From Nitrospirales bacterium (GTDB lineage: Bacteria; Nitrospirota; Nitrospiria; Nitrospirales; UBA8639): DNA of 64,000 bases. The stretch lies in assembly GCA_031315915.1 (NCBI GenBank), contig JALDRK010000022.1, positions 1-64,000 of the forward strand, written 5' to 3'. The notes beneath the pieces are model-generated. The model had not been told where the DNA came from. It ran no database searches and saw only the letters and a list, made by a program, of their open reading frames with translations. Position numbers and translations under genes: made by a program. This document shows, piece by piece, positions 26,910 through 54,218 of this stretch. The number at the start of each line of letters is the position of its first letter. Position 1 is the stretch's first letter.

Positions 26910-26980
26910 GGAAAGACTCCTTGTCATGATTGAATGATATGTGTTCATGAATTTGGGTTCGGAAAAATTATCCTCACAAC

Positions 26981-33763: not shown

Positions 33764-34144
33764 ATGTGGCGAGGACATTTCATCAATTTTTTATTTTTCC
33801 TATTCATTTTGCTGAATGGGGGAACACAGGTCTTGGCTGATCCGGTTTCGGCTCCAATGGTGGAATTACCCTCTGCGATTCATTTTCTGACGCCTGCCGG
33901 TGACGATGTGGAGGTGGGCCCCGGCACGTATCAGGTAGAAGTAGCTGAAAACTGGCTTAAGCTTGATTCGAAAGGGGAAAGTTGGACAGGTGCCATTCTG
34001 CTGGATGCCAGTCAAGGTCCCCATGAAGAAGGCATAGCCGGGCCGGAGGTGCGGACGGTATCCGATCCTGACCATCCCGAGCTGCTGCATCTGGCCCTGC
34101 TGATGCCCGGAGGAAGAGGGCTTGAAACCATGACGACAAATTGA
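33764..34144 (+). CDS. Stand-alone secreted GDD-domain protein
   Basis: A 126-residue protein made of a signal peptide and one copy of the shared domain: LPSAIHFLTPAGDDVEVGPG, AENWLKLDSKGE, and a C-terminal GGRGLETM. There is no C-terminal extension. It shows that the domain can fold and act alone. RBS AAGGAGG at 6 bases. It lies between two larger paralogues on the same strand. Confidence 0.88.
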   Translation: MWRGHFINFLFFLFILLNGGTQVLADPVSAPMVELPSAIHFLTPAGDDVEVGPGTYQVEVAENWLKLDSKGESWTGAILLDASQGPHEEGIAGPEVRTVSDPDHPELLHLALLMPGGRGLETMTTN

Positions 34145-34235
34145 TGCATACGACGTTTGTAACTTCAGATGTGCATCCGAATGCCAGATAAAACCGCTAA
34201 CCCTTTGTCAGGTGAATTGATCGAAGGAGTATGTC

Positions 34236-36380: not shown

Positions 36381-36421
36381 AAGAGAAATTGTCCAAGAGA
36401 AAGCAGGTGGGGAAAAAGACC

Positions 36422-38029
36422 ATGAAAATATTTGCCGAGGCGCGATATGCATTGGTTCTACTTCTGTTCGCAGGAAGTGTGAACAGTGCGTTTGCCGACT
36501 TCTCTCAACCTGTACCCTTCACCTTGCCCTATACCCTACATTTTCTTTCGATTTCCGGTGACGATGTCGTGCTTGCGGCAGGGTCCTACCGGATTGAATA
36601 TGCCGAATCGTGGTTGAAGTTGGTGCCGGATGGAGAAGGCCCAGAGTCGGCGGTTCTTGTAGAAGCGATATTCGGTAAGCACGAACGACAATTAGCAGAC
36701 GCCACGGTTCAGTTGCACCAAGATTCCGATAATTCCGATGTATATCATTTGGTCCTTTTGCTGTCCGATGGCAGCGGGTTTGAATCGGTGGGCACAGTCA
36801 GTGGCATCAGACCCCGTGGACTCCGGATGGTGTTTCTTAATAAAGCGAATCTTCCAATGAAGGCGAAGAGAAACCCCTCCTCCGGTGCCGGAGGAAATAC
36901 TATTTTCCCCACCCTCATCACGAACAAACCCGGCTACGTGACCAAGATCGACAGTGATTGGACTGATCGGTGCGTACCGAATGTGGAGCATCAAATCACC
37001 GAAACGTTGCACAACGGGAAGGATAACAGAGAACTTTTGGCCTACCGGTCAGGGGGTAATGGTTCGCCATCTCTGGAGAACAAAGGGCTACATAAAGCCG
37101 GAAGGACAGGAAGAAACTCCTGGAAACATCGGCAGGGTATCGCCAGATATTTTTCGGGAACCTACAACTATTTTTATGTCTCTGATTCGGTTACTTCCGC
37201 CTGGACTCGTGTAGAAAAATTTGGCGGTGTGGAAGTGGTCCAATGGGCCAATGCCGGGAACGCAGGACAACTGAGTTCCAATGTTGGTAATAACCCTCGC
37301 CAAGCACCAGGCTCAAATTTTTCAGTTATAAACTATGTTCAGGAATTGGGAGCCGATCATGCCGGTGGCATTCAAGTGTATGGACGATTTTTAGCTGTTC
37401 CCTATTTTGCCGACCGTGATTTTATTCGCTTGTATGATTTGCAAGATCCGCGGAATCCACGTCCTCTGCGTGCCCTGACTTCCACAAAAAATGTTCAATT
37501 CGGATTTGCCGCTCTGACACGATTGAATAATGGGAGATACTTGGCCATCGGAGGAGATGATCGGATCGAAGTGTTTGTCACCGAAGGGACCAGCCTGCTG
37601 GGAACCTGGAAATCGCATTCAGCCTGGAACCCGGTTAAAGGGTTTGTGGACGATCCTCGCGGGCCGGCCAATATGAAATATCAAGGGGCTCAATTCCTGA
37701 CCGATTGCTCAGGGTCCTTATATTTAGCGTTGACTCGAAAAAGTATCAATGCTCTGGGAAGTTACCAAAATGATTGGATCGATGTCTGGCGGACGCATGT
37801 GTATTCCACGAAGGGAAAATATACCATTGGATTATCCAAAGTCTTTAACCGGCATATGTACTGCGGCGGTGGCGGTGACACCTTGTGGTGCAATTTTGTG
37901 GCAGGAGCCGGCATGTACATTCATCCTCAAAACGGCGACCTTCTAGCCTATGGCATTGAGCATTGGAACGACGGTCCTCAGGTAAACGGAGTGGGAAGTA
38001 CAAAGATGAAAGAGTTCCGACAGAAATAA
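36422..38029 (+). CDS. Secreted modular protein: GDD domain plus LVIVD-like propeller
   Basis: A 535-residue protein (start MKIFAEARYALV). Signal peptide, shared domain (ISGDDVVLAAGSYRIEYAES, then GSGFESVGTVSGIRPRG), then a long propeller-like region with YVQELGADHAGGIQVYGRFL, RLYDLQDPRNPRPLRALTS and LAIGGDDRIEVFVTE. The C-terminal part is RHMYCGGGGDTLWCNFVAGAGMYI with closely spaced Cys. This matches in order the paralogue on the other strand (40.2-41.9 kb), minus its crystallin tail. RBS is weak; coupling with the previous gene is possible (42-base gap). Confidence 0.85.
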   Translation: MKIFAEARYALVLLLFAGSVNSAFADFSQPVPFTLPYTLHFLSISGDDVVLAAGSYRIEYAESWLKLVPDGEGPESAVLVEAIFGKHERQLADATVQLHQDSDNSDVYHLVLLLSDGSGFESVGTVSGIRPRGLRMVFLNKANLPMKAKRNPSSGAGGNTIFPTLITNKPGYVTKIDSDWTDRCVPNVEHQITETLHNGKDNRELLAYRSGGNGSPSLENKGLHKAGRTGRNSWKHRQGIARYFSGTYNYFYVSDSVTSAWTRVEKFGGVEVVQWANAGNAGQLSSNVGNNPRQAPGSNFSVINYVQELGADHAGGIQVYGRFLAVPYFADRDFIRLYDLQDPRNPRPLRALTSTKNVQFGFAALTRLNNGRYLAIGGDDRIEVFVTEGTSLLGTWKSHSAWNPVKGFVDDPRGPANMKYQGAQFLTDCSGSLYLALTRKSINALGSYQNDWIDVWRTHVYSTKGKYTIGLSKVFNRHMYCGGGGDTLWCNFVAGAGMYIHPQNGDLLAYGIEHWNDGPQVNGVGSTKMKEFRQK

Positions 38030-39750: not shown

Positions 39751-40260
39751 TTACCTCCTGATAAACTTCGATGACGAGACCTTGTCGTTAAACCCCGGCT
39801 GTTGAATGGCAATTTTCTCGATCCGTCCTGTTCCGATGAGGTCTAGGTTTTTCCCTTTATACGAATCATGTTCGTACAGACGATGCAGTTCGATAACGCA
39901 ATAAAGAGAAACTTTGTCTTAGTTCCGTTGTCCTGGTCGTTGTTCCGTAAATCGTCCTGCTGAGGTCTGTCGGTCAGCGTTGGTTCCGGAACGCCAACCG
40001 AAAAAGATTCCACCTCAGTCAGTCGGTGTTGAATGGATCGTGGTTCCTGGCGAAAATCGAGAAGAGGAGACCTTGTCGTTCCATCCGTCGGTGCTGAGGT
40101 TGGAAATGGCTTCTCCTTGTTTCCCGTTCCGTCTGATCTTCAACAGGCGGCCCTTAAATGCTTTGTCCTCAAAAAGCAGGTACGCCAGCCGGAAGGAATT
40201 GCCCACGGGCGGACGAAGCTTTATCCTCGAATCCTTCCACACGGTCATAGTCAGAGTAGT
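39751..40260 (-). pseudogene. Frameshifted beta/gamma-crystallin tail of the next gene
   Basis: Reading leftward past the stop of the modular gene at 40169, crystallin-like repeats continue in other frames. Repeat 1 is in frame (LYDDHSFGDRSIMVDYV ... DKASSAR). One base later in frame, repeat 2 reads LLFEDKAFKGRLLKIRRNG ... GWNDKVSSSRF, to 40060. A linker with GVPEPTLTDRPQQDD is in a third frame, and repeat 3 (LYEHDSYKGKNLDLIGTG ... FNDKVSSSKFIRR) ends at TAA 39751-39753. At least three single-base shifts separate the pieces. The first shift is explained by one extra G in CGTGGGC near 40201. Confidence 0.75.
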
Positions 40261-41902
40261 TTCTCAAGTGCTGATCCACATAATCGACCATAATGCTGCG
40301 GTCGCCAAAGCTATGGTCGTCATAGAGTTCGACCCAAGCCTGATTGATACGCGTCAAAGGAGGAGAAATTGAAGTTGGAACGGGACGAAATTCGTTGACA
40401 CGCACTACACCGGAATGGCGCCAGTGTTCCACTCCATAGATGAACAGTTCTCCGTTAGTGTCAACGTAGACTCCGGCCCCCGCATCGAAATCGCAGATGT
40501 TCTGGCAGTACATGTGCCGGTTCGCGACTTTGGTAATAACGGTATGATGGCCAACGAATCCAGGATTTCCTGTTTGGCCGAGTTGCAGCAGTTCGAGTTT
40601 AAATAAGTCTGCCCAATCCTCCCCACCTCGTATCACGCCTCCTACGCCCAAGTTTTTATGAAGGCCGACAAAAAAGAGCTGACCGTCGCATTGCCGGATC
40701 AGATTGATATTTTGATAATTCCCGAATTCCCGATCCATGCCTTGGAGTTCCCGCTCATGCCAGGAATCCGCATGCTGAAACGTATTCGTGAGCAGGTTGG
40801 TGGCTTGCGATAGATACACATCCAGGACGTTGGAATCCGATCTTCCGACAATCAACACGAACTTACCGTCCGGACGTTTCACGAGAGCCGTGGCGCCTGC
40901 ACTGGGTTTTTCGCTGAATCCTCCAATGGTTCCTGAGCGGGGAATTCGGTACAGTTCCTGGGGATTTCCCGGATCTTTGATATTGTAGAACACCACCTCC
41001 GATATATTTCCTCCTTCCATGCCGACGACCAAAATATCTCCCACGACTTGAAATCCGCCGGCATGGGTCAGGGTCCGACTGGCTTCTATCACCTTGACTA
41101 CACGATCGTTAGCCGGCGGGGTGTCGGAAGAGAGTCGGTTGGATCGAAAGCGGCCTGTGGTCGGTCGTGTTGACATATCGATGATAAGAATCTCTCCCGC
41201 CTGCGAAGCGCTTCCCGATACGGCCAAAAATTTTCCGAATCGCTGAATGCCTTGATAATGGGAATGACCCGGCTGGCTGTAGGCGCCAGGTGTTTGGGTG
41301 TGGTGAAATCCGAGTTTGTCTCCATGAGTGCGAACTTTCAGGAATTCTGCTCGAACATCCCGGAGACAGGGATTGGTATCGGACAGTGCCGTGGTGGATC
41401 CCAGAGAAATTGAGGAGGAGATTTGTCCTGAAAATTGAGGAAGTGCGGTTTTCGCCTGTTGGGTCAGCATCTTGAGCCGGATAGGACTCAAGGTGAGGGA
41501 TGGACTGCTTCGTAAGCGGATTCCGGTGGTCGTCCCGATCGATTCGTATTTTTTCCCATCGGGGAGTAGGAGAATCAAATGAAACGAATCGGATGGATCT
41601 CCTTCGGCGGCCAGGGCCAGTGCTGCGTCTAATGTTTCCTCATGGAGCCCTACGTGTGTTTCAATCAACAGAGCTTCAACGATCTTCCCTCCGCTGGGGA
41701 TGATCCTTAACCACTCTTGGGCGGGTTCCACAACATAAGACCCTGCTTCAACAACCGCATCGCTGCCTTCTGCGGTTGTGAGGTGCACCGCTTGTTCCAA
41801 AACTAAGGGGGTGGCGGCCCATGAGAGCCCAGGGGAACCCACTACCCACCCATGGCAGAGGAGAAGAAAATTGAAGACCAGGTAGATGAAATGTCGTTTC
41901 AT
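40169..41902 (-). CDS. Secreted modular protein: GDD domain, propeller, first crystallin repeat
   Basis: From the ATG of MKRHFIYLVFNF (RBS AAGGAG) this is 577 residues. Signal peptide; then the shared domain in a divergent form (HLTTAEGSDAVVEAGSYVVE, AQEWLRIIPSG, YESIGTTTGIRL). A propeller-like region follows with HSHYQGIQRFGKFLAVSGS and PDGKFVLIVGRSDSNVLDVYL, and RHMYCQNICDFDAGAGVYVD near the end. It closely follows the order of the 535-residue paralogue, then adds a beta/gamma-crystallin-like tail (WVELYDDHSFGDRSIMVDY) cut by a frameshift. The product would lack the last two crystallin repeats. It faces its paralogue across a 2-kb gap. Confidence 0.85.
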   Translation of the reverse strand: MKRHFIYLVFNFLLLCHGWVVGSPGLSWAATPLVLEQAVHLTTAEGSDAVVEAGSYVVEPAQEWLRIIPSGGKIVEALLIETHVGLHEETLDAALALAAEGDPSDSFHLILLLPDGKKYESIGTTTGIRLRSSPSLTLSPIRLKMLTQQAKTALPQFSGQISSSISLGSTTALSDTNPCLRDVRAEFLKVRTHGDKLGFHHTQTPGAYSQPGHSHYQGIQRFGKFLAVSGSASQAGEILIIDMSTRPTTGRFRSNRLSSDTPPANDRVVKVIEASRTLTHAGGFQVVGDILVVGMEGGNISEVVFYNIKDPGNPQELYRIPRSGTIGGFSEKPSAGATALVKRPDGKFVLIVGRSDSNVLDVYLSQATNLLTNTFQHADSWHERELQGMDREFGNYQNINLIRQCDGQLFFVGLHKNLGVGGVIRGGEDWADLFKLELLQLGQTGNPGFVGHHTVITKVANRHMYCQNICDFDAGAGVYVDTNGELFIYGVEHWRHSGVVRVNEFRPVPTSISPPLTRINQAWVELYDDHSFGDRSIMVDYVDQHLRNYSDYDRVEGFEDKASSARGQFLPAGVPAF

Positions 41903-42014
41903 GGGCATCTCCTTGGAAAGCAGCCTTCAGGCCGACCCACGGCGAATGTCGTTAGGCCTCTATCATGTTGATCGATTGCTCCCTGAAACCCCCTTCGGTT
42001 TGAACGTACCTGGA

Positions 42015-42359
42015 TCAGGTCCCGGACCACATCAGGTAACGTTTCTGTCCGGGATTGGTGGGATCGGCCACCGCCGTCGGTTCCGTGACCGATTCCTCAT
42101 GTGGTTGGGTCCGGGCCTCAACCAGGAGCGCATCACGCCATTCGCCGGGAATCAGGCGGAGCCATTGTTCCGTGGCTTCCAGTTGATAGGTGCCAGGCTT
42201 GACCACGACATCACTCCCCTCGGCATTCAGAAAATGAACAGCCTGATCCAACGTCAAGGTGGTCGAGGCGTAGGAAAAGCCCGCTGTACACATGAAGACC
42301 ATGAGGGCGAGGCACAAACCCTTCACGCTGGATTGCGGGAACAATGGTGGCCCGGACAT
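42015..42359 (-). CDS. Stand-alone secreted GDD-domain protein
   Basis: The ATG of MSGPPLFPQSS follows AAGGAGG at 7 bases and gives 114 residues. Signal peptide to about GFSYAS, then the shared domain: AVHFLNAEGSDVVVKPGTYQ, TEQWLRLIPGEW, and an ending cut short after KRYLMWSGT. It lacks the usual GLExxGT end, so it is a minimal version. It precedes the VgrG-like gene in DNA order but follows it in transcription. Confidence 0.85.
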   Translation of the reverse strand: MSGPPLFPQSSVKGLCLALMVFMCTAGFSYASTTLTLDQAVHFLNAEGSDVVVKPGTYQLEATEQWLRLIPGEWRDALLVEARTQPHEESVTEPTAVADPTNPGQKRYLMWSGT

Positions 42360-42529
42360 AGAACACCTCCTTGGCCTGAGTGGCGGAAAAAATCGCACCT
42401 CGAAAAAATATTATTGGGTTTACGCGCCAGCCTCCTGGTCATTTACTCGGTTATACCGGTGCCCTTTCGTTGAGTAGGTTTGATCTATCATGGAACCGCT
42501 CAGCCATAAGGCCTCATCTCCACCCACCG

Positions 42530-44155
42530 TCACTGGCGTCCTGGTACAAGTGGACGCGTTGGGGTCTTCAGTCCACCTGGAGGCGGGAATTTTTGTATCG
42601 CCGGACCAGGTGTATGAATGGCTGAAGATGCCATAATGCCATTCGGGTTCAATTGAATAAACTGATTCCCCACCCGAAGCGTAAGTTGCTCATTCCCGGC
42701 CGCTGACTCCATGACCAGTTCAAGGGGAATGGCTCCCCCTGGGATGGAGGTACTTCGCAGCACGGTCTGTGTCTTGTTATAGGGAAGTTGAACCGGCGGA
42801 GCATCATTTCCGTTGTACAAACTGCCGATGATCACGGGACGACGGGGATCACCATGCTCGAAAGCCACAACCACTTCGTCGCCTATTTCCGGAAGCCACA
42901 GGGCCGTATTCCCTTGTCCTGTTGCAATCTGAGCTACTTTCACCCACCCGGCGTCACCAGGTTCCACGCTGTTACTGAGGGCGGGATTTCGCCACGGAAA
43001 TCGAACTTTGACACGTCCGAAGTTGTCAACGTGTTTCATTTCCCCTTGTGGTCCCACCACGATGGCCGGCAGGACCCCGGTAATTCTGGGACGAGGAGTG
43101 ACCGGTGACGGGACAAACGCAATGTTGGCCGGAAGACAGGTAAACGTATTGCGATACCCGTTGGGAGTGCCCTGATGCTCAACGCCGGTCACGACATATT
43201 CCTGATTGAAATCCTTTCGAGGATGTTCCGCGAGTAGAAATCGGTATCCTGCCTGCAATTGCGGATAGGTAGATTGCCCTCTGCAGGTCTGTCCTTCGGT
43301 GATCCGTGCACCAAGGCGTCGTGCAGCATAGCGTTGGGAGTCTTGGGGTGTCTCCACGGGGGCTGGGAATATCCCTTCTACCAAATCGGAAAAGATGGGA
43401 GACTGGGCCGTAGCCGTTAAATTGATCTGTGGGGTTTTCCAAGGAAAGTCACCGGTCTGGGTCTGCCCGGAATGAAGCGCAAGCCCACGGGAAAACGAGG
43501 TGATGGATGGAACGGTTTTCGTGCCGAATATCAATTTTCCCTGAGTTAACACGGGAAAGGCATTGTTGGAATCCCCCAATACGATTTTTTCTCCGGATTC
43601 CGACAGCTCGAAATGGAAATGAATACCGTCGTCCTCTAACAGGCGTGAAAGAAAGGCCAGATCGGACTCCTGATACTGTACGGTGACCTCTTGAGCCGAC
43701 ATCTGGCCGTTCAGTCGTGTTTCAAGACCGGAGATTCCGGCCTCATTCAAAATCTTGGTCACGACTTGCACCGGATTCATGTCGCCGAAGGTACGGCTGG
43801 TCATGCGAAAGGCCAACCGGATCAGGCTGGGGACCAGCTGAACATGATAGTGACCCTGGCGGCCTTCCACGCCGGTTTGTTCGAGCTTTTGCACCATTCC
43901 GGTAAGGGTTCTTCCTGGAGCCACGGTCACTTGCAAGGGTTGTCCTACGACATTGGCAAAGTTGAGCGCTGGATGAGCCACGGTGAGGTCGATCTCAAAA
44001 ACAAACGGCTGCGATAGCCGTTCGGTCCCTGTGAATTGCACGACCGACCCTTGGGAGAGAGCAGCGAGATTGGGATTGACCGCAGCCTGGCCAGTGGCCG
44101 AAATGCCGATGGCCAATGTGTAGAAAACAAAGGCGAGGAATGGTTTCTTGGGCAT
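42530..44155 (-). CDS. VgrG/phage-tail hub-like protein with Sec signal peptide
   Basis: A 541-residue protein of the VgrG/gp27-gp5 family. The N-terminal half has the gp27-like hub: RFTGTERLSQPFVFEIDLTV-like text (here FTGTERLSQPFVFEIDLT), PVQVVTKILNEAG, VQYQESDLAFLSRLLEDDG. It continues into the gp5 OB-fold: HVDNFGRVKVRFPWRN, LWLPEIGDEVVVAFEHGDPR and RPVIIGSLYNGNDAPP. The C-terminal beta-helix stalk is almost absent. The first 25 residues form a Sec signal (AFVFYTLAIGISATGQA). Cytoplasmic assembly is usual for VgrG, so an exported one is notable. RBS GGAGG at 6 bases. Confidence 0.9.
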   Translation of the reverse strand: MPKKPFLAFVFYTLAIGISATGQAAVNPNLAALSQGSVVQFTGTERLSQPFVFEIDLTVAHPALNFANVVGQPLQVTVAPGRTLTGMVQKLEQTGVEGRQGHYHVQLVPSLIRLAFRMTSRTFGDMNPVQVVTKILNEAGISGLETRLNGQMSAQEVTVQYQESDLAFLSRLLEDDGIHFHFELSESGEKIVLGDSNNAFPVLTQGKLIFGTKTVPSITSFSRGLALHSGQTQTGDFPWKTPQINLTATAQSPIFSDLVEGIFPAPVETPQDSQRYAARRLGARITEGQTCRGQSTYPQLQAGYRFLLAEHPRKDFNQEYVVTGVEHQGTPNGYRNTFTCLPANIAFVPSPVTPRPRITGVLPAIVVGPQGEMKHVDNFGRVKVRFPWRNPALSNSVEPGDAGWVKVAQIATGQGNTALWLPEIGDEVVVAFEHGDPRRPVIIGSLYNGNDAPPVQLPYNKTQTVLRSTSIPGGAIPLELVMESAAGNEQLTLRVGNQFIQLNPNGIMASSAIHTPGPAIQKFPPPGGLKTPTRPLVPGRQ

Positions 44156-44404
44156 CAGCAGCCTCCTTCATTGAATCGGAACACAATTCTCTACAACTCA
44201 TGTGTTGAGGGGGGATGGAACTTGACATACCGGACATATCTCATAGACCGCCTGTTCTTATTCTCCTTTTGAGTGGCGCAGATTGAGACGGGCGAAGAAG
44301 AAGGCTGGTTATGGTGTGCGAATTCCCATAACGCCTCCTTTCTGTTCTCCTTGGATCCAATGTGAAAGATGAAGCCCTCATGAACTCTTGAGGGAATGAG
44401 TATT

Positions 44405-46492
44405 TCACTGCGTTGCCGCTTCCGCCAGTTGCACGACACTGCGATTGTAGCGCTCCAGAGCTTTCCTGGTGTCTTCCGTATGTGTACTCGCCAGGATGAC
44501 GATTTGTTGTTTGGATGGCAAGTGTCGAAGAAGAGTCGATAAAGGACCGGCATGGCGTTGAATCGCAGCATACGGTTGTCCGGTTTTAAGTGCGTTCTTG
44601 GCCTCGTCAATGACTTTCCCATAGGCAAAGTGGAGTCCCCCTTTTACGCTCCCGACAATAATATTATTAATGGTCAATTTCCAAATGACGTCGGGTGTAA
44701 TCTTGGCCAGGCCGGAGACAATCCCTCCGGCCTCCGGAACGAGGCCGGCCACGCTCTGCACGACTGTGCCAACGGTCTGTTCGCCAAAATCCAATACTTC
44801 AACGGCTGAACGGATGAGAAAGCTCCCTCCTCCAGGCAGTTCGCTATCCAGATAGTTCTTGCCCACCACGCGGAGAATTTCCATCCCGATATCGATATAG
44901 AGGGATTCGGTCCAGGGGGAGTTGGGATCGAGCGCGGTTCTGACCGCATTGAGGGCCTGCTCTCGTTGAGCGGGGGTATTCAGCGACCTGGTCAGGAGTT
45001 CAATTTGCGTAGCGGCGGCATAGAGATCACGAGGATTCAAAAGTTGGTCGGCCAGTACGGCATTTTTTATGTCAAGAATATCTCCTAACCCTGGGACCAC
45101 GTCTCCGAGTAAGGCCTTGGTATCGTCCTGGGTAAATCCCCGACCAACGATCTGTCCGTCAGAAAAAAAACGATCATCTGAAAAATCTTGCCGTGGATCG
45201 AGGCCTCTTGATCGAATTCCCGCCTGCGCAATTTCTTGAGGCGTCAACGAGAGCACTGCGGCCATGAGATTGCCAATTTGTTGGCTCAGGCTGCCAAATA
45301 GGATGGGCGCGACCTGGTTGTCGAAGATACGTTTCCCTTGAGTCAGAGTCGTCTGCTGTATTTGCCCTGACATATTTTGAAAAGTTGCGAGGTGCGGATG
45401 AACAAACTGCATCAGACATCGCCCACCCGGACTCTTTTGGGCTAATTTTTCAATAGATCGAAAGGCCATCCCAATCACTTGCGGTCCTTGGGGCGCGGTA
45501 CGAGATGGGTTTCGGATGAACTGGAGTTGTTCGGCCATGACCTCGCTAAAACTCTGTTCCCATTGCCGCATGATGTCCTGGAAAAGCTTATTGGCAAAGT
45601 CGGGGGGATTGGTGGTGAATTGTTGGACCATCTGAGGAAAATTGAAGGGGAATTGACCTGAGGATTGTCTTAAGCAGGCAAACAACGGTTCCAGGTTGAG
45701 TTTTCTCACGGCCTCCAAGGTTTGAATTTCACTCTCCAGTTTGGCCACCAATGGATTGTTTTGGATGTTATTGAGTTGTGTCTGCACCCCACTGCCGATG
45801 GCCTGGCCGGCTTGTCTTGCCCCTTGCTCCACCGCTTGCTTGGCCTGAAGGGCGGCCGACTGAGCACTTTGGAGACCTTTTTGAGCTGCAGCTGCGGCTT
45901 GTTGTGTAGCTTGTTGCGCCGCCTGCTGAGCGGCCTGTTGGGCAGCTTGTTGGGCCTGTTGTGCTTGTTGGGTTGCCTGTTGAGCTGCATTAGCCGCGGC
46001 AGAGCCGGCATTGTTAGCCGTAGACTTTGCCTGGTTATAGGTATTGGTCGCAGTCTTCTTGGCATTGTTAAAGGCTTGTCCCACATTGAATCCTCGGGGG
46101 CGAATGCCACTAAAGGTGCCGGTGGCTTCCAGGCTTTGCCGGCCAGGGAGGAGCAGCATGACAAACTGAAGGTCGGCTTCTTCTGGTGAATCACTCCCAA
46201 AGGCCATCGCCATCGGATCTTCAATATCCAATGAATGCATTCCCCGGGCTGCTTCAATGAGTATGGCATTTCGCCGTTCCCCTGGGTCTAAACGAATCCA
46301 CTCTTCGGCCGATTCCACCGTATAGGTTCCTGGCTCTACTTCCACATCGCTTCCATCAGCGCCCAGAAAGTGCACATTCGTCGCAAGGCGTATACTGGTC
46401 AAGGGATCGCCTACCATCCCATAGCTGGCCATGGGCATCCAGGTTGAAACGACAACGATAAACATGACGGTATAGAAAGAGCGACGATTCAT
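44405..46492 (-). CDS. Secreted modular protein: GDD domain plus Ala/Gln-rich helical body
   Basis: The ATG of MNRRSFYTVMF follows GGAG at 9 bases; the product is 695 residues. Signal peptide, shared domain (VHFLGADGSDVEVEPGTYTV, SAEEWIRLDPGE, GRQSLEATGTFSGIRPRG). Then comes a repetitive Ala/Gln stretch (QQATQQAQQAQQAAQQAAQ, residues about 165-235), a probable long amphipathic helix, and a large helical body. There is FLIRSAVEVLDFGEQTVGTV near the C-terminus. It could be an extended rod or tape-measure-like element in a tail assembly; this is inference from composition and position beside tail genes. Confidence 0.82.
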   Translation of the reverse strand: MNRRSFYTVMFIVVVSTWMPMASYGMVGDPLTSIRLATNVHFLGADGSDVEVEPGTYTVESAEEWIRLDPGERRNAILIEAARGMHSLDIEDPMAMAFGSDSPEEADLQFVMLLLPGRQSLEATGTFSGIRPRGFNVGQAFNNAKKTATNTYNQAKSTANNAGSAAANAAQQATQQAQQAQQAAQQAAQQAAQQATQQAAAAAQKGLQSAQSAALQAKQAVEQGARQAGQAIGSGVQTQLNNIQNNPLVAKLESEIQTLEAVRKLNLEPLFACLRQSSGQFPFNFPQMVQQFTTNPPDFANKLFQDIMRQWEQSFSEVMAEQLQFIRNPSRTAPQGPQVIGMAFRSIEKLAQKSPGGRCLMQFVHPHLATFQNMSGQIQQTTLTQGKRIFDNQVAPILFGSLSQQIGNLMAAVLSLTPQEIAQAGIRSRGLDPRQDFSDDRFFSDGQIVGRGFTQDDTKALLGDVVPGLGDILDIKNAVLADQLLNPRDLYAAATQIELLTRSLNTPAQREQALNAVRTALDPNSPWTESLYIDIGMEILRVVGKNYLDSELPGGGSFLIRSAVEVLDFGEQTVGTVVQSVAGLVPEAGGIVSGLAKITPDVIWKLTINNIIVGSVKGGLHFAYGKVIDEAKNALKTGQPYAAIQRHAGPLSTLLRHLPSKQQIVILASTHTEDTRKALERYNRSVVQLAEAATQ

Positions 46493-46535
46493 AATCTGCA
46501 ACTCCTATTCGTGTTATGTGCGATAAACGATAGTG

Positions 46536-47072
46536 TCAGGGCACAAAGATGCTCGGACTTCCCGTGATGACTTTGTTTCCGGAGACAGTGCTGCCCAGGC
46601 TGGCTACCGGTTTGGCCCCATTATTCATTTTGACTTGTGGCGCCTTGAGGTTGACTGACCCAGCACCTTCCAACGTCGCGGTACTTCCTCCTTTGGCCAA
46701 CAGATCTTTCCCACTGACAAGGCTCAGATCCTCTCCCACTGTGAAATTGGTATCTTGTCCTGAAGTCAGGTTGATCGCGTTCGCCGCGTTCAGACTGAGA
46801 TTCTCCGCTTGAATAGCGGCGCCATGTTGTGAAACGTGGATGACCGAACGCAGCAGGTTGACTTGGCCTTGCAAGCTGGCGACCTGTTGCTCGAGCGCCG
46901 TGATTTGCTGATAGAGAAAGTCCGGAGTCAGTTGAAGCTGAGGAATTGTGTTTCCTTGTTGTGGGACAAGGGGACTCGACGGGGCTTGCCGGATGTTCGG
47001 GTCTGCCCCGATGGCCAATGAGAACTGGGCAACGAACATGATGGTTGCGATGGTCATAATCATTTTTCGCAT
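46536..47072 (-). CDS. Secreted coiled-coil/beta-stalk protein (DUF2345-like)
   Basis: A 178-residue protein: signal peptide, a short coiled coil (QITALEQQVASLQGQVNLL), then repetitive strands in the manner of VgrG stalk ends: NLSLNAANAINLTSGQ, LSLVSGKDLLAKGGS, GSVNLKAPQVKMNNGAKP. This is the needle-like beta-helix piece without a hub. RBS AAGGAGG at 5 bases. It follows the tube-like gene in transcription. The coiled coil suggests a trimer. Confidence 0.85.
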   Translation of the reverse strand: MRKMIMTIATIMFVAQFSLAIGADPNIRQAPSSPLVPQQGNTIPQLQLTPDFLYQQITALEQQVASLQGQVNLLRSVIHVSQHGAAIQAENLSLNAANAINLTSGQDTNFTVGEDLSLVSGKDLLAKGGSTATLEGAGSVNLKAPQVKMNNGAKPVASLGSTVSGNKVITGSPSIFVP

Positions 47073-47135
47073 GGGAGACCTCCTTACGGTGATCAGCCTA
47101 CCGTGTTAAGGGAAGGCGCCTGGTGAAGTGCATGG

Positions 47136-48209
47136 TTAACGGTTGGGGGATCCTCCGCCGGGGTATTCGGTTAACTGTAGGGATTCGAAATACATCTCCA
47201 CTTTGACCAGGGGATTCCCGCTGGCTTCGGATTGTGGAACAGGTGACATTCGAAGGATGCCGAGGTGCTCAAAACGTAAGGTGAAGAGGCGTGCTTGACG
47301 ATCGGAAGTCAGATATTCCAGTGTGCCCGATCGCTCATCGGCATCGGAGGCCTGCCCTTGAACAACAAATTGGTAAAACCATTGCGTAAATTGGGCCGCT
47401 TGCGATTGTGGCAGGGTAATCACGAGAGGGGAAGTTTGGATTTGGCCGCTTGTGACTACCGGCGCATGTCGGGCTCCCACAGGAGACTGTGTGACTGCGC
47501 GTTTCCAGAGTATTGGTTCCACCTGAGTGACAAAGTTACAGGCTTGTTCCAGCCCATCGATCATGAGACGGAAATTAGACGCGAGCCAGGGTGAAACCTT
47601 AGGAGCGAGCGGAACTCCAATCTGAGATCCGGAACCGCCCTGGTAGGTGAGTTGTGAAGATTTAATCGTCAGGCCGAGGGCCACTGGCGTCGTGGCGGCT
47701 AAAGCATTGAGGGCGGGAAAGGTCACTTCGGTTAACAGGGCATCCTCAAACTGTTTCCGGTCGGTAATCTGATTGTTCAGATTGGTGGTCAGGATCGCGC
47801 CGGATCTTTGAGACGGTGGTCCTGCCAACGTCTGCTGAATCCACTGATACAGGGCCGGGGACATCGTCTGTCCACATTTCATCGCGATATCTTCATAGAG
47901 AATCCCAGCCAGTTGCTTTTGGGGATACGAGGATTGGGTGGAAGGATGTTCGATCACCTGCCCTGAGATAAACCCGCTGTCTAGGGAAGAAATAGGGCCG
48001 GCGATTTGGCCGCCCAGTTCTAATATGTAACGGATGCCCGCTGCTTGTGGTCTGGCTGCAGCCAGCGCGGATCGAGACTGTCTGAACGGAAGCGGAAGGC
48101 CAAAGGTCAGAATCCCTCCTGTGAGAAGAGCAGCTTTTGCGAGAAACTCCCGCCGAGTTTGTGGTGGATTCTTTGTGGGTTTTCGTCTTGAGGGAGTAGG
48201 GGGCTGCAT
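47136..48209 (-). CDS. Tat-exported tandem tail-tube-like (gp19-like) protein
   Basis: A 357-residue protein with a twin-arginine signal: TRREFLAKAALLTGGILTFG (RR at 19-20), followed by a hydrophobic region. Residues 58-190 resemble a phage tail tube domain: RYILELGGQIAGPISSLDSG, AGILYEDIAMKCGQTMSPAL, YQWIQQTLAG and AILTTNLNNQITDRKQF. Residues 195-350 look like a second copy: NFRLMIDGLEQACNFVTQVE, RAVTQ, TLPQSQAAQFTQWFYQFV and VKVEMYFESLQLTEYPG. A doubled tube domain can build a trimer with pseudo-sixfold symmetry, matching a VgrG hub. Tat export implies folding before export. RBS AAAGGA. Confidence 0.8.
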   Translation of the reverse strand: MQPPTPSRRKPTKNPPQTRREFLAKAALLTGGILTFGLPLPFRQSRSALAAARPQAAGIRYILELGGQIAGPISSLDSGFISGQVIEHPSTQSSYPQKQLAGILYEDIAMKCGQTMSPALYQWIQQTLAGPPSQRSGAILTTNLNNQITDRKQFEDALLTEVTFPALNALAATTPVALGLTIKSSQLTYQGGSGSQIGVPLAPKVSPWLASNFRLMIDGLEQACNFVTQVEPILWKRAVTQSPVGARHAPVVTSGQIQTSPLVITLPQSQAAQFTQWFYQFVVQGQASDADERSGTLEYLTSDRQARLFTLRFEHLGILRMSPVPQSEASGNPLVKVEMYFESLQLTEYPGGGSPNR

Positions 48210-48294
48210 AAACCTTTTCCTTTCGTCAGTGCTGGACCGGGCCAGATTTTTTTTGAGTGTCGGTTGGGCTTTTCATCTCTCATGGACCTTGGCT

Positions 48295-48864
48295 CTAGTT
48301 TGAAGTTACCTTCGATCCTTTAATGGTGACATCCGACGATCCCTTAACCTGGATGTTTCTGCCCTCGATGGTGATATCTCCGTTTTTGTTGAGGATGATT
48401 GAGGCTTGGCCGGTTCGTAAGATCACTTGGTCTCCTGCGGAAATGATCGTGCGTTTTTCAGCCTTGATGTTGATGTCCAGTCCGGTGTTTTGAAAAAGGG
48501 TTCTTCCGATCTTTTGAACCAGATCCTGGCCTATTGATTCGCTTTGATTGGTGCCGACCGTGGTGAATTGACTCCCGCCAATGGATTCGGTGGACGCTCC
48601 TCTGATCCAAAGATTGTGATTCCCGCCTATATCCGTCTGTCCATGCCCAACGGTCATTTCCTGCTTATGTTTTTGGATGGTGATACGGGTGGTTCCATCC
48701 GGTTCCACATTGACCACACTTTTTAACTGATTCAGTTCTTGTTGAAGCAAGCCTATTTGTTGCTGTAAGCCGGTGATCTGTTTAGTGAGTTGAGAGTCTG
48801 CAGCCAGAGCCAATGATGAGGTCAGGAACATCATGGTTAATGCGGTAGTTATGAATGATCGCAT
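48295..48864 (-). CDS. Secreted detached VgrG-type beta-helix stalk
   Basis: The ATG of MRSFITTAL follows AAGGAG at 7 bases and gives 189 residues. Signal peptide, coiled coil (QITGLQQQIGLLQQELNQLK), then a beta-helix: TRITIQKHKQEMTVGHGQTD, NLWIRGASTESIGGSQFTTV, AEKRTIISAGDQVILRTG, SIILNKNGDITIEGRNIQVK and GSSDVTIKGSKV. This is the C-terminal stalk of VgrG/gp5 encoded as a separate protein. It complements the stalkless VgrG-like hub 4 kb away. Confidence 0.92.
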   Translation of the reverse strand: MRSFITTALTMMFLTSSLALAADSQLTKQITGLQQQIGLLQQELNQLKSVVNVEPDGTTRITIQKHKQEMTVGHGQTDIGGNHNLWIRGASTESIGGSQFTTVGTNQSESIGQDLVQKIGRTLFQNTGLDINIKAEKRTIISAGDQVILRTGQASIILNKNGDITIEGRNIQVKGSSDVTIKGSKVTSN

Positions 48865-49187: not shown

Positions 49188-50354
49188 TTATGGAGAGAGC
49201 TTATGGGATCGATCAAGTTCCGCCGGCGGTAACAGGCCAACCTGTTCCAGAAGGCTCGCTCGTTGGTTGAGATAGGGTCCGTTCAAGCCATCCGATTGAA
49301 TACGCTCGGATAAGGCCCAAAAGGCGTCATACCAAAGACCGGCTTCGACCAATTGCTCTAAGGGAGCGGTTTGCATCGTGGGTTGGTCGGGAATCGTGAT
49401 CAGATGAGAAGGGGGATTGACTCGCATGATCCAGCCGCTGGTCACAAGGGATTCTCCTTGCGTAACGCCTTGTAACATGATTTTCCACTGATAGGTGGTA
49501 TTCGGTTGGAGTTTAATGCCGTAATCCTTTAACTCCACTTTATGAATGCCGGGCCGTATGGGTGGGAGCATGCGGACATCCAGAAGCAATTGTGTATTGT
49601 TTTCATCCGTGATCATGACATCCACAGGATGATCGGTTGGCGTCCCAATAAACCAAAACAACGCGGGCTGCTCGAAGATTGTGAGGCCGATATGATCGGG
49701 AGAGAGAACAGCAAGAAAAATAGGTTCCTGTCCCATTTCCTGCCGGTCCACAATAATGCGTTTTCCTTGTGATGATAAGGAAGGTGCTTGATAGGGCAAG
49801 GAGGGTGTGGACGTGATGACCGGGGTCGGTGGAGCTACGGGAAGAGATGCGTGTTCCGTTTCCTGTATGGGAAGGGGAGACGCTGTTATCGGTGGTTCGG
49901 GGACGATGGGAGTGGGTAAGGGAGCGATTTTCGGGGAAGGTGATAATTCTGAAGCGGAAACGGGCAGAGTTGGGGGTATAGGGGGCTGGGTCGATCCCCT
50001 GGCTTCTAAACGAATCCCTCCCGGCATCAACAGTTCAATGAGGTATTCATCGTTTTTTTGCGGACGAGTCAGTGCCATGGGCGAAAAAAGCTCATATTGC
50101 TCATGGGTTAGCGCTTGTGCATGGATGACTTGCCCTGAGCCTGGCTGTGCGCCTTCAGGCATGAGGCGCAATTCGGTCGAACCGGACTGCTCGATGAAAT
50201 ATTTTCCGGGACTGAGTAAAACGGAGGAGCCATCCGGAGCCGGAAAATGCAGGGCGCGGCTCAGAACAATATTCGGTTGCGTCGCCAGGCATGGAGACGT
50301 AACCAACAGCAGAAAGCCAAACCCTAGGATGATTTTGGCGAGATCACGTTTCAT
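49188..50354 (-). CDS. Secreted modular protein: GDD-like domain plus DUF928
   Basis: A 388-residue protein. Signal peptide; a divergent shared domain (ALHFPAPDGSSVLLSPGKYF, SGSTELRLMPEG, GIRLEARGS). A Pro-rich linker follows (about 125-180), then a DUF928-type region: PIFLAVLSPDHIGLTIFEQP, ALFWFIGTPTDHPVDVMI and LQPNTTYQWKIMLQG. DUF928 proteins occur as cyanobacterial and other secreted proteins of unknown role. It is the most distant member of the locus family. No clear ribosome site before the ATG. Confidence 0.82.
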   Translation of the reverse strand: MKRDLAKIILGFGFLLLVTSPCLATQPNIVLSRALHFPAPDGSSVLLSPGKYFIEQSGSTELRLMPEGAQPGSGQVIHAQALTHEQYELFSPMALTRPQKNDEYLIELLMPGGIRLEARGSTQPPIPPTLPVSASELSPSPKIAPLPTPIVPEPPITASPLPIQETEHASLPVAPPTPVITSTPSLPYQAPSLSSQGKRIIVDRQEMGQEPIFLAVLSPDHIGLTIFEQPALFWFIGTPTDHPVDVMITDENNTQLLLDVRMLPPIRPGIHKVELKDYGIKLQPNTTYQWKIMLQGVTQGESLVTSGWIMRVNPPSHLITIPDQPTMQTAPLEQLVEAGLWYDAFWALSERIQSDGLNGPYLNQRASLLEQVGLLPPAELDRSHKLSP

Positions 50355-51144: not shown

Positions 51145-51906
51145 ATGTCTGTTTCTCAGGTCTCACAGTTAGTCAGCGTGGTGATGCCGGTTTTTAACGA
51201 AAAAGACACGATCGAACGAGTTGTGGATCGTGTGTTGAACGCCCCGATTCAAAAAGAACTGATCATCGTGGATGACGGATCAACGGACGGAACCAGAGCA
51301 TGGCTGCAAAAGCGATTCAGCGCGAACTCAGCGGAATCTTCACAGAGAAAAGTTGCCATGTTCGGGACCACCCGCCAGTCATCACAAGTAGGAGTTTTGT
51401 ATCAACCCAGAAATACGGGGAAAGGAGCGGCCTTGCGTCGAGGATTCAAGGAAGCAAAAGGAGATATTGTTTTGATCCAGGATGCAGATTTGGAATATGA
51501 CCCCCAAGACTATCAGCGGCTTCTGGAGCCTATTCTGAACAATCAGGCGGATGTGGTGTATGGCTCACGGTTTTTGGGCCAACCGTCTTCTGCCTGGCCG
51601 ATGTTCGCGTATCTGGGCAATAAAGTTGTGACCGGTCTGGTCAATGTTTTGACGGGCGTCACCCTGACCGACGTGTGGACGGGGTATAAAGTGTTGCATC
51701 GCAAGGTACTGGAGGGCATGCTCTTGCAGGAATCGGGTTTTGAATTGGAAATTGAACTCACTGCAAAGATCGCGCATGGCAAATGGCGGGTATGTGAGGT
51801 TCCGATTCGTTACGTTCCACGCACAAAGGCTGAAGGCAAAAAAATCCGGTGGTTGGATGGCATCAAGGCCCTTCAATGCAGCGTCAGATATCGAAAACCT
51901 GCTTAG
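51145..51906 (+). CDS. GT2 glycosyltransferase, dolichyl-phosphate-mannose synthase-like
   Basis: A 253-residue family 2 glycosyltransferase: VVMPVFNEKDTIERVVD, the nucleotide-binding ELIIVDDGSTDGTRAWL, the DxD-like IQDADLEYDPQDY, then VVYGSRFLG and CEVPIRYVPRTKAEGKKIRW. This set points to the DPM1/GtrB-like group that loads sugar onto a polyprenyl phosphate. Only one weak hydrophobic segment is present, so it probably works with a membrane partner. The polytopic membrane protein at 54.5-56.2 kb is one candidate user of a lipid-linked sugar. ATG position is taken at MSVSQVSQLVS. Confidence 0.93.
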   Translation: MSVSQVSQLVSVVMPVFNEKDTIERVVDRVLNAPIQKELIIVDDGSTDGTRAWLQKRFSANSAESSQRKVAMFGTTRQSSQVGVLYQPRNTGKGAALRRGFKEAKGDIVLIQDADLEYDPQDYQRLLEPILNNQADVVYGSRFLGQPSSAWPMFAYLGNKVVTGLVNVLTGVTLTDVWTGYKVLHRKVLEGMLLQESGFELEIELTAKIAHGKWRVCEVPIRYVPRTKAEGKKIRWLDGIKALQCSVRYRKPA

Positions 51907-52069
51907 CGCCTTTTTCGAGGGATGCCACCCTTTCTTTTATTCCTATAACCACAGTAGGTATTTCAATAATTCGCAGGCATTGGTACGAAGCCAAAACTTG
52001 GTGCTCTGAACAGGCCAGTCGCAGGTCGATGGTTAAACTTTCATGCTCTAGATTAGTCCATTGAAACAT

Positions 52070-52110
52070 AGAGCCCCCTGGAAGGTAATGGCCACCTTCC
52101 AGGGGGCTCT
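52070..52110. terminator. Strong 17-bp hairpin between convergent genes
   Basis: AGAGCCCCCTGGAAGGT and its exact complement flank a 7-base loop. It lies between the GT2 gene and the convergent companion-protein gene. There is no T-run on either side, but the stem is very stable and probably ends or protects both transcripts. Confidence 0.75.
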
Positions 52111-52139
52111 GTTGCAGATGAAAAAACTAAGGAGACAGG

Positions 52140-53018
52140 TTATTGAAGTGCCGGAGCTTCACCCTCGGTAGGCACTTCCATTTCCCCTATTTCTGCTTCC
52201 ATACCTTCTGGGCCCTCTCCGCCCTCTATGCCTCGAGGCCGAATCATTCCCGGCATCATGCCAGGCTTTATTTGAAGCTTGGGAAGAATCAGTTGGCCGG
52301 GGATTTTCCCGGGCATGGGACCTATTTCTTTGACTTCTTGAATGGTCGCTTTGAATTGTTGCAAGGGTTTTCCTTGGAAAGCTTGTCCCAATCCGTCCGG
52401 GATGAGTGGCCGGACACTATTATCCCTTTCAACAAGAAACCGGGTGCTGGGATTCAATAGAGTTTTTGTTGCCACCTGTCTTCCCTTCACTCTGACCTGG
52501 GGACCGTCACGGAGAAACATGACATAGTTTTCTCCGACTTTGTACTCCTGGTCGTCATGAATGTTAATCGTGTTTTCCATAAACGGCGTCGGTCTGGCGG
52601 GTGGGTCCGAGGCCCCCTGGGGTTTGGGGGGAGCTTCTTTCATATTCGGCATATCATGTCGGGATACCGGAAGCCCTGCGGTTCGGAAGATTTGAACTTG
52701 CTGGCCCGGTTGGCCTTTCATGGCCCCTTTGACATTCATACTCACGACTTCAATCGCAATCCGTTCCACATTGCCAGGCTCTCCCTCCGCGGGAATAACC
52801 AGATCGTCGGCCCGTTCAACGTTCGTGACTTGAGCTTCCACGATTTCTTTGGCTAAGCCTTTAGCCTCGGCGAGATTTCGTGGTTCAAACGCCCAGGCCG
52901 CCATCAACACTGGATCGGGCTTGTTAAACCAATATTGATATCCGACTTGTCCGGCAAAGGCCACGCACAGGACGGCAATGGTTCCTTGAAGAATCCGGTT
53001 GTAGGTCTTCGGGTTCAT
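52140..53018 (-). CDS. Secreted companion protein of metalloprotease locus 1
   Basis: The ATG of MNPKTYNRILQG follows AAAAGGAG at 7 bases and gives 292 residues. A signal or membrane segment lies at about 8-24. The body has AEAKGLAKEIVEAQVTNVER, a segment VVSMNVKGAMKGQPGQQVQI, then a VGENYVMFLRDGPQVRVKG motif. The tail is Pro-rich and ends with IRPRGIEGGEGPEGMEAEI. The pattern (hI-x-A-x-V-x-x-V ... K-G ... F-x-x-G) is shared by two other proteins at 56.9 and 59.4 kb. It is encoded right after a metalloprotease gene. Role as partner or inhibitor is unproven. Confidence 0.75.
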   Translation of the reverse strand: MNPKTYNRILQGTIAVLCVAFAGQVGYQYWFNKPDPVLMAAWAFEPRNLAEAKGLAKEIVEAQVTNVERADDLVIPAEGEPGNVERIAIEVVSMNVKGAMKGQPGQQVQIFRTAGLPVSRHDMPNMKEAPPKPQGASDPPARPTPFMENTINIHDDQEYKVGENYVMFLRDGPQVRVKGRQVATKTLLNPSTRFLVERDNSVRPLIPDGLGQAFQGKPLQQFKATIQEVKEIGPMPGKIPGQLILPKLQIKPGMMPGMIRPRGIEGGEGPEGMEAEIGEMEVPTEGEAPALQ

Positions 53019-53079
53019 GGAGAATCTCCTTTTCATATTTTTTCGATTTTACGATCATTAAGGAGTACCAAGGCGATGG

Positions 53080-53607
53080 TTAATACATGGCATTGATATC
53101 AGACCAGTTATGACTGTTCGTATAGTTACTACTTGGGCTGTAATATCCTTTCGCCATGCAGCCATTGGTATTGCTGTGATCCAACCCGAAGGTATGGCCG
53201 ACTTCTTGGCATTGTACGCCTTGAACGCTGGCACTCGAATAGTTGTAATAGGTATTAAACTGGGCATGGGCATGCTTGATTCTGCACCAACACCACTTAT
53301 GCCACCAATCAAAGCTATACTCTTTAATCGAGGCCAAGCCCGCCCATCCGGTATTGCCGGCATTCGCTCCGAACACGCTCACATCCGTGTGCGAGGACTT
53401 TAATGGCAGCGATAATTGGGTATGGTCATCCCAATCTTTGATGGCAGCTTTGGATTCGGCCTGTTTGCTCCCATACACATACATGTAAATGGTCTTTTTC
53501 TCCCAATGCCAATTGCCCCATTTGTGCGCATTACTGACCTGGACATTTAGGGCCAATAAGCCGAGAGCGACCAACGTTAGAAATCCTGACAGGATTTTTC
53601 CTCTCAT
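53080..53607 (-). CDS. Secreted matrixin-like metalloprotease with variant zinc motif
   Basis: The ATG of MRGKILSGFL follows GGGAGG at 8 bases and gives 175 residues. Signal peptide to about VSNAH, then a compact metzincin-like domain. The zinc motif reads CQEVGHTFGLDH; the usual first His of HExxHxxGxxH is Gln. The catalytic Glu, the second and third His and a downstream NGCMAKG Met-turn are present. Related proteins in other bacteria also carry CQEVGH, so this is probably a genuine family variant. An adjacent companion protein follows by 61 bases. Confidence 0.8.
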   Translation of the reverse strand: MRGKILSGFLTLVALGLLALNVQVSNAHKWGNWHWEKKTIYMYVYGSKQAESKAAIKDWDDHTQLSLPLKSSHTDVSVFGANAGNTGWAGLASIKEYSFDWWHKWCWCRIKHAHAQFNTYYNYSSASVQGVQCQEVGHTFGLDHSNTNGCMAKGYYSPSSNYTNSHNWSDINAMY

Positions 53608-53690
53608 GTGCAACCTCCCTGGTTAAATGAACGGTGAATCCAATCCAGGATGGATTGAGTGCCAAATATTCCGCACCGTGCAATACTTGG

Positions 53691-54218
53691 TCATGACTTG
53701 GGATCCGCCCCAGCAATTTGTTTTCCCATAGCCTGTTCTAACTGTCCAAGCAGGGTAGCGTCTGAACCGACATACAACACAAGAATTGTTCCCGATGAAA
53801 AAAAATGAGGTGGATTGACCCATTGGACGACGGTTTGTCCGATAGACCTTCCATCCGGAGCAATGGCGTGTTCTTGAGATTCCCGAGCCCGAGCATTCTC
53901 AAATTCAAAGACTTGAATGTCCTGGCCTGCTACACGAAGTGTTTGTCCGGATACCGAGAAAAATGGTTGAGAAATGGGCCCGGTGGGTTCCACCGACAAC
54001 CCTTGACTTCTCAGTGTGTCGACCAGACTTACATGATTCCGTACGGGTCCGCCGTGCGAAACCACGGAAGTGTCGGATCCGTTGCATCCGCCCAATACAA
54101 ACAGGAATGAAATGATTCCGCACATGCCGTACACCCATGCACGTCCCAATCGACCATGAAAACGGATAAAGCCGATTGGCGACTCGGTCTGTGGCGCCAA
54201 GAGAGGGCCTGTATGCAT
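53691..54218 (-). CDS. Hypothetical lipoprotein
   Basis: A 175-residue protein with a hydrophobic segment ending in LGGC at about residue 45, a lipobox preceded by a rather long basic N-terminus. The start may be later (ATG at MCGIISFLF). The mature part contains VDTLRSQGLSVEPTGPISQP, then VSGQTLRVAGQDIQVFEFEN and FFSSGTILVLYVGSDATLLG. No family was recognised. It is read in the same direction as the nearby protease gene but starts independently. Confidence 0.65.
   Translation of the reverse strand: MHTGPLLAPQTESPIGFIRFHGRLGRAWVYGMCGIISFLFVLGGCNGSDTSVVSHGGPVRNHVSLVDTLRSQGLSVEPTGPISQPFFSVSGQTLRVAGQDIQVFEFENARARESQEHAIAPDGRSIGQTVVQWVNPPHFFSSGTILVLYVGSDATLLGQLEQAMGKQIAGADPKS

Follow-up and report, generated by a model that had tools for sequence, protein, structure and literature searches.

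How do parts of a phage tail or of a type VI secretion system (T6SS) come to carry signals for export, when to our knowledge all known T6SSs, contractile injection systems (CIS) and phage tails assemble in the cytoplasm? The question is raised by a gene row of a Nitrospirales bacterium (assembly GCA_031315915.1, contig JALDRK010000022.1), found in a stretch of 64,000 nucleotides (positions 1 to 64,000, forward strand), the whole of which we call the window. A preliminary description of this DNA had placed four tail-like parts side by side between 42,530 and 48,864: a VgrG-like hub and two beta-stalk proteins with signals of the general secretory (Sec) type, and a tandem tube-like protein with a twin-arginine translocation (Tat) signal. 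All four were recovered there, on the minus strand, together with a fifth exported member of the same row, P0002, which had been overlooked. In the order of transcription the row reads as follows.

48295-48864, minus strand: stalkA, 189 amino acids (aa); Sec signal, heptad-like stretch and Gp5_trimer_C-like stalk
47136-48209, minus strand: two-domain tail-tube protein, 357 aa; Tat signal (TRREFLAK ... SALAA)
46536-47072, minus strand: stalkB, 178 aa; Sec signal, heptad-like stretch and gp5/VgrG-like stalk
44405-46492, minus strand: P0002; Sec signal, N-domain, Ala/Gln-rich stretch and a conserved helical C-terminal domain (P2C)
42530-44155, minus strand: VgrG-type hub, 541 aa; gp27 and gp5-OB domains, Sec signal, Shine-Dalgarno-like AAGGAGG, no long C-terminal stalk

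The intergenic gaps along this row are 85, 63, 43 and 249 bases, and a Shine-Dalgarno-like sequence lies upstream of all five signal-bearing ATGs. A promoter and terminator scan gave nothing above the level of shuffled sequences. Export signals were called by our own hydropathy and motif rule, by alignment and by eye, not by SignalP. The rule misses signals without K or R ahead of the hydrophobic stretch, and when it was applied to eight window genes taken as cytosolic it flagged two, namely an amidohydrolase whose start resembles that of a lipoprotein and, at an internal start, a uracil-DNA glycosylase. Pfam scanning covered part of the open reading frames (ORFs) of the window. G000 denotes the window's own genome, a draft that is 91.6% complete; the other G labels denote genomes of relatives, and L labels denote loci.

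The hub meets the definition of the T6SS VgrG/TssI tip family (TIGR03361, 380 bits against a cut-off of 186, E 1.7e-113), and scores 204 bits with PF05954 and 61 bits with PF04717; its residues 41-496 can be aligned with VgrG1 chains of solved structure (178 bits). The chain stops shortly past the OB domain; the long C-terminal stalk is absent from it and is apparently encoded as separate genes. Its Sec signal is MPKKPFLAFVFYTLAIGISATGQAA. A search of the phylum (395 genomes, 48 of them matching at E 1e-20) left a gap in score between full-length members of the window clade, at 662 bits or more, and all other VgrGs, at 341 bits or less. We judged 35 distinct Nitrospirota VgrGs, taken from the fetched loci among the matches listed, keeping the best match of each locus if it had 380 aligned residues or more and counting identical domains once. 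A Sec-type signal was borne by all seven VgrGs of the window clade and by none of the 28 others. The seven form one side of a branch with an SH-aLRT value of 100, at a point where, as the tool warned, long branches meet. Five VgrGs that were aligned (52-66% identity to that of the window, with 66% for the G043 and 65% for the G046 protein) have variable hydrophobic leaders, all ending in a conserved Ala-Ala, and the G070 VgrG has no alternative start codon upstream of the VgrG domain.

The tube protein matches the gp19-like family PF06841 over its first half only, with 33.4 bits as a protein (cut-off 28.2); the genome search gave 25.7 bits, which does not reach the cut-off. An AlphaFold2 (AF2) model built from a 19-row alignment has two successive tube domains, with a mean predicted local distance difference test score (pLDDT) of 80. 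When this model was compared with solved structures by Foldseek, the best four matches (8xan, 7qg9_G, 8ed0 and 8hrg; E 1e-9 to 1e-7, template modelling scores 0.45-0.59) were tail-tube or tail proteins covering nearly the whole length, after which came Hcp and the single-domain tubes of contractile systems. Some of the matched proteins belong to what we take to be long non-contractile tails. The two-domain tubes of T5-type tails form trimeric, pseudo-hexameric rings.

Every one of the 13 aligned tube sequences keeps the twin arginine. Among 33 full-length homologues, RR-x-[FLV]-[LF] was found in 19, all from Nitrospirota, and was absent from 14 (11 from Myxococcota and three from Nitrospirota); the motif is thus present in 19 of the 22 Nitrospirota tubes and in none of the 11 Myxococcota tubes judged. 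These counts exclude incomplete copies (for example in G007, G036, L078 12168-12386 and G045), and L069 was moved by hand from the Tat class to the class without a signal, its RR sitting in an unlikely 5' extension. By itself the hydropathy rule picks out 12 of 19 tube-family members; the remaining seven were judged by the RR motif and by eye. The signal-free Myxococcota relatives mostly occur as a tandem pair, followed in L080, L081, L084, L086 and L091 by a further single-domain tube relative. In L083, the one Myxococcota locus scanned with Pfam, the pair is surrounded by a GPD hub, a gp19 tube, a CIS_tube protein and two sheath genes. A phage origin of the tube was rejected: neither tblastn against 50,697 phage records nor scanning of viral contigs turned up a relative, and plasmids yielded one weak partial match. 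Signal-free two-domain tubes of other Nitrospirota lie at L067 9038-10036, L069 1851-3035 and L068 7287-8180; those of L067 and L069 are followed by two genes each of about 390-410 aa, three of these four with lipoprotein-like starts by the rule and one with an under-cut-off LpoB match.

The two stalk proteins resemble the beta-stalks of gp5 and VgrG. StalkA scores 28.9 bits with PF22178 (Gp5_trimer_C), under the cut-off of 30.9, and matches PHROG 430 (baseplate hub/tail lysozyme) at E 7e-6; stalkB matches DUF2345 with 21.4 bits (E 2e-4), under the cut-off of 30.7. We read both as putative detached VgrG stalks, because the same sequence continues the C-terminus of the VgrG chain in G070, G093, G367 and G421, hereafter the f3 relatives. 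P0002 is up to 81% identical to relatives in other species, and its C-terminal domain, P2C, is found in six of the seven genomes with a signal-bearing VgrG; it was not found in the G070 stretches. P0002 is possibly a tape measure, a scaffold or a cargo. The protein matches PHROG 167 at E 9e-4 over a stretch that includes a low-complexity part, and its AF2 model is mostly helical at low confidence (pLDDT 53), too poor to support a tape measure. Relatives of the stalks and of P0002 also bear signals, except for cut-off copies and copies missed by the rule. The preliminary description had held that signals failing across orthologues would reduce the set to an ordinary secretion locus; the Sec signals of hub and stalks and the Tat signal of the tube are kept in orthologues and absent from ordinary homologues.

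The same parts recur together in other genomes. The co-occurrence proposed earlier was searched for, and all seven genomes with a Sec-type VgrG also hold a Tat tube and Sec stalks, in one gene row in G000 and G043. The G043 row is stalkA, tube, stalkB, P0002, four N-domain genes and VgrG, and G038 has the same row up to the end of its contig. In G046, VgrG and a second type of Tat tube share one contig, and stalk, P0002 and N-domain genes another. The f3 relatives have one to three Tat tubes, one or more stalks, a VgrG with stalk and Hcp in one island, which in G093 is spread over two contigs. Clustering of island proteins gave two families that are Hcp by Pfam (82, 77 and 69 bits for the three members scanned). 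When 18 genomes were searched with PF05638, nine proved to have Hcp; the island Hcps of the f3 relatives pass the cut-off with 53-83 bits, and there was no match in G043, in G046 or, at E 0.001, in the window genome. A Sec-type signal was found in all seven Hcps of the f3 relatives (six called by the rule; that of G070, which starts at an internal ATG, was recognised by eye), against none of the seven ordinary Hcps of other genomes; the fragments L173, L175 and L176 were left unjudged. All seven signal-bearing Hcps are located in the VgrG/tube islands.

Is there an engine to drive such a tail? The preliminary description had seen no sheath or baseplate, and had noted that a sheath, baseplate or ATPase set next door would point to an ordinary secretion locus. 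Among the window ORFs scanned we found no Pfam match to a sheath, baseplate or motor, and across the whole window genome there was no PF04984 (sheath), PF05943 (TssC), PF04965 (gp25) or PF05638 (Hcp) match at E 0.001. ClpV, TssM, TssL, TssK, TssJ and PAAR had no match among the same ORFs, the search for ClpV, TssM, TssK and PAAR being confined to these. No phage head or packaging gene was seen in this non-exhaustive scan either. TssC was absent from all seven hub-bearing genomes and present in all six genomes with an ordinary VgrG tested alongside. For the families searched, a T6SS next door was thus rejected. A hidden sheath was also considered, as some relatives carry an orphan sheath-like gene; it is signal-less and has no homologue in the window genome. 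Around this lone gene, in L099 (G046), L101 (G043), L102 (G038) and L100 (G007), we noticed no other contractile-system gene; in L099, L101 and L102 it adjoins genes that we read as tryptophan synthase genes, and the G043 match contains an in-frame TAG.

What could such a structure carry? P0002 shares its N-domain, a stretch of about 98 residues that follows the signal in most cases, with a collection of 68 proteins, 61 of them signal-bearing by the rule. The domain had no Pfam match and, against solved structures in the PDB, nothing below E 0.5. The window encodes eight of the 68; those not listed above are the following.

49188-50354, minus strand: Sec signal, N-domain and DUF928 (PF06051, 75 bits), putative passenger
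42015-42398, minus strand: truncated N-domain gene, 127 aa, remnant or stand-alone
40169-41908, minus strand: Sec signal, N-domain and an undescribed C-terminal part with no Pfam match, putative passenger
36347-38029, plus strand: Sec signal, N-domain and an undescribed C-terminal part with no Pfam match, putative passenger
34236-36380, plus strand: Sec signal, N-domain and right-handed beta helix (PF13229, 26.9 bits), putative passenger
33764-34144, plus strand: N-domain fragment, 126 aa; in-frame TGA in the match 33830-34153
32215-33690, plus strand: Sec signal and N-domain, 491 aa, no Pfam match, putative passenger

The two truncated genes (33764-34144 and 42015-42398) suggest a turnover of passengers. 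Few of the 51 N-domain proteins scanned had a Pfam match: PAN (three), DUF928 (two), DUF11 (two) and, once each, lipase class 3, Peptidase_S74, beta helix and some others. In G043, G011 and G004 the N-domain continues into a stalk as one fused protein, which, like the joining of stalk and VgrG in the f3 relatives, connects the parts with one another. In G046 it is fused to a class 3 lipase, encoded beside P0002; a papain-like protease sits between tubes in G070, and G093 has an under-cut-off match to Zn-dependent phospholipase C beside P2C. At least two N-domains were found in nine of the ten genomes with a full or partial tube of the window type (G007 and G036, with partial tubes, being entered as tube genomes), against nine of 136 others (Fisher p 7e-9). 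The nine among these 18 genomes that have no tube of the window type, some of them incomplete, weaken the idea that the N-domain is the docking tag of the tube; it is associated with the tube but not tied to it.

The surroundings of the row gave some further observations. The block at 51145-54218, which encodes a glycosyltransferase, a matrixin-like protein and two proteins that match no Pfam family, has a conserved counterpart immediately next to the Tat tube of G093 (L063 5187-8052, 37-63% identity), and synteny therefore extends beyond 42530-48864. The matrixin-like protein (53080-53613, minus strand; PF00413, 24.6 bits) has a signal-like start and a zinc motif, QEVGHTFGLDH, in which the usual first His is replaced by Gln. 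A signal-free family, one member of which has a CxxCxxCC domain (PF03692), occurs in the islands of seven genomes (L058 1567-2283, L059, L061, L062, L064, L078 and L158) and was not seen in the window. At 28039-31593 and 26241-27991 (minus strand) lie genes for a large WD40 protein and, after it, a propeller protein and a FecR protein; relatives of the large protein recur in the islands of eight genomes, and in a G093 island the protein at L131 675-4604 joins WD40 repeats to a caspase domain. At 19123-19854 (plus strand) lies a gene for a protein with an Mrr-type restriction endonuclease domain (PF04471, 49.7 bits).

The window VgrG is a full TIGR03361/GPD/OB hub as in a T6SS, and the f3 relatives add Hcp in the same islands. 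Unlike in a T6SS, the hub and the relatives' Hcp bear Sec-type signals, no TssC match exists in the seven hub-bearing genomes, and the window genome has no Hcp match, the role of tube being taken there by the Tat-type two-domain protein. With the CIS and extracellular CIS (eCIS) of Myxococcota the set shares the gp19-like feature of its tube, whose nearest signal-free relatives lie inside such a system (L083); it differs in that neither sheath nor gp25 was matched in the window genome, the tube is of the Tat type and the hub is a T6SS VgrG. The two-domain fold is that of long phage tails (the SH-Ab15497 major tail protein, the T5 tail-tip core protein, and the P74-26 and DT57C tail tubes), which the set also resembles in having no sheath. 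By contrast, no sequence relative of the window tube was found in the phage records and viral contigs searched, all the window parts are signal-bearing, the hub is VgrG, and no capsid or packaging gene occurs among the ORFs scanned. As for the beta-stalks of gp5 and VgrG, the likeness lies in the stalk sequence fused to VgrG in the f3 relatives, and the difference in the two separate Sec-type proteins of the window, with their N-terminal heptad-like stretch and Pfam scores under the cut-off. In PMC11297309, "signal peptide" means an eCIS loading leader, and the hypothesis is put forward that eCIS toxins should lack a canonical Sec peptide; such a leader differs from the export signals of the window set. 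Among the matches listed from open-licence PubMed Central (preprints not included), no title or abstract opening describes a signal-bearing VgrG, Hcp or tube.

It is well supported by these sequences that tail and T6SS parts are sent, as predicted from their signals, across the inner membrane without a contractile engine, and the export of hub, stalks, P0002 and tube is very probable. The best explanation, and one on which we are evenly divided, would be a tail-like assembly that is exported, lacks a sheath and was exapted from parts of T6SSs and contractile tails. Because signal-free relatives of the tube lie in a contractile system and no phage relative was found, we infer that parts of contractile systems and of the T6SS were exapted and gained their export signals afterwards. 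To the extent that the window genome was searched, injection driven by contraction is unlikely there, since without a sheath nothing would fire in this way.

The reading with the best support is that each part crosses the inner membrane by itself and is destined to act outside the cytoplasm. In the exported assembly proposed here, the VgrG trimer would form a pseudo-hexameric hub in the periplasm or on the surface, the detached stalks would make up its spike, just as the fused stalks do in the relatives' VgrGs, and trimers of the two-domain tube, as pseudo-hexameric rings, would stack on the hub. By the predicted Tat route, the tube would have to fold before export, which perhaps prevents early polymerisation. 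The product may be a fixed spike or tube in the envelope or on the surface, or a passive conduit, and would bear passengers from the same loci, namely N-domain proteins, some of them fused to a stalk and one to a lipase. Going by the known folds, one would expect a VgrG trimer carrying stalks and a stack of tube rings; co-assembly of tube, hub and stalk could go either way, and a cargo-bearing spike, rather than an adhesin or a matrix, is proposed only tentatively and is on the unlikely side. The balance tips slightly towards doubt for the proposal as a whole: a new nanostructure, with neither sheath nor ATPase, whose parts would cross the inner membrane separately (the tube via Tat; the hub, the spike and, in some species, Hcp via Sec) and come together beyond the cytoplasm into a tail-like platform for exported passengers.

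Several observations weigh against a joint assembly. The parts are found apart: G071 and G094 (99% complete) have Tat tubes with no VgrG match at E 0.001, G038 (73% complete) likewise, and G004 (98%) and G011 (99%) have stalks and N-domain proteins with neither a tube nor a window-type hub, G004 carrying P2C as well. Most of the genomes are draft metagenome-assembled genomes, most N-domain proteins have no Pfam family, and, as said, half of the genomes with at least two N-domains have no window-type tube. Thus the earlier suggestion of a tail-like assembly built outside the inner membrane stands as regards the export of the parts, with their signals and no engine found, while the assembly itself stays conjectural, the parts being separable. 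Their separation, together with the distance of about 11 kb between VgrG and tube in G421 and the many kinds of exported proteins in the islands, fits the view that tail folds were reused singly as separate exported surface or matrix proteins, such as adhesins or enzyme scaffolds, which would form no joint tube, hub and spike. We regard this as rather unlikely, given that tube, stalks and hub coincide in all seven Sec-VgrG genomes and share one row in two of them, that stalks are fused to VgrG, and that Hcp, a ring former, is exported in four genomes. In addition, in a PF04984 search that did not extend to G367 and G421, an ordinary contractile system was found on other contigs of G070 and G093, and a lone signal-less sheath-like gene, or pieces of one, in G043, G038, G046, G036 and G007.

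These contractile genes, and the retention of the lone cytosolic one in several relatives of family f1, would suit an extracytoplasmic extension of a cytosolic machine, in which the exported proteins would belong, as accessories or substrates, to an ordinary contractile system of their own cell. The chances of this are slim, as searches of G000 found neither a homologue of the orphan sheath nor any match to PF04984, TssC or gp25, and TssC is lacking in the seven hub-bearing genomes. Less improbable, and overlapping with the exported assembly as a sub-case of it, is a siphophage-like non-contractile secreted tail, serving as a passive conduit by which effectors would pass the outer membrane of the cell itself or reach a target. 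It would agree with the closest folds of the tube, which are two-domain tail proteins including presumably those of long non-contractile tails, and with the hydrolases near or within the set (the G070 protease, the G046 N-domain lipase and the weakly matching G093 phospholipase C); against it stand the lack of a demonstrated energy source or tape measure, P0002 being predicted helical at low confidence. Least probable of all is decay, in which phage or contractile-system remains would bear signals incidentally. The truncated N-domain genes (42015-42398 and 33764-34144) and the window tube, which has the longest terminal branch of its group, could be taken in that sense, but the frames are open, VgrG and P0002 are conserved across species at the identities given above, signals and start sites are conserved, and no phage relative of the tube was found.

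That hub, stalk and tube, and in some species Hcp, are signal-bearing while no T6SS sheath match accompanies them suggests a move of these parts to another compartment. The set makes it possible to test whether a tail may self-assemble outside the cytoplasm and what one might accomplish without contraction, and it would offer an evolutionary route from an injection machine to a structure of the envelope.

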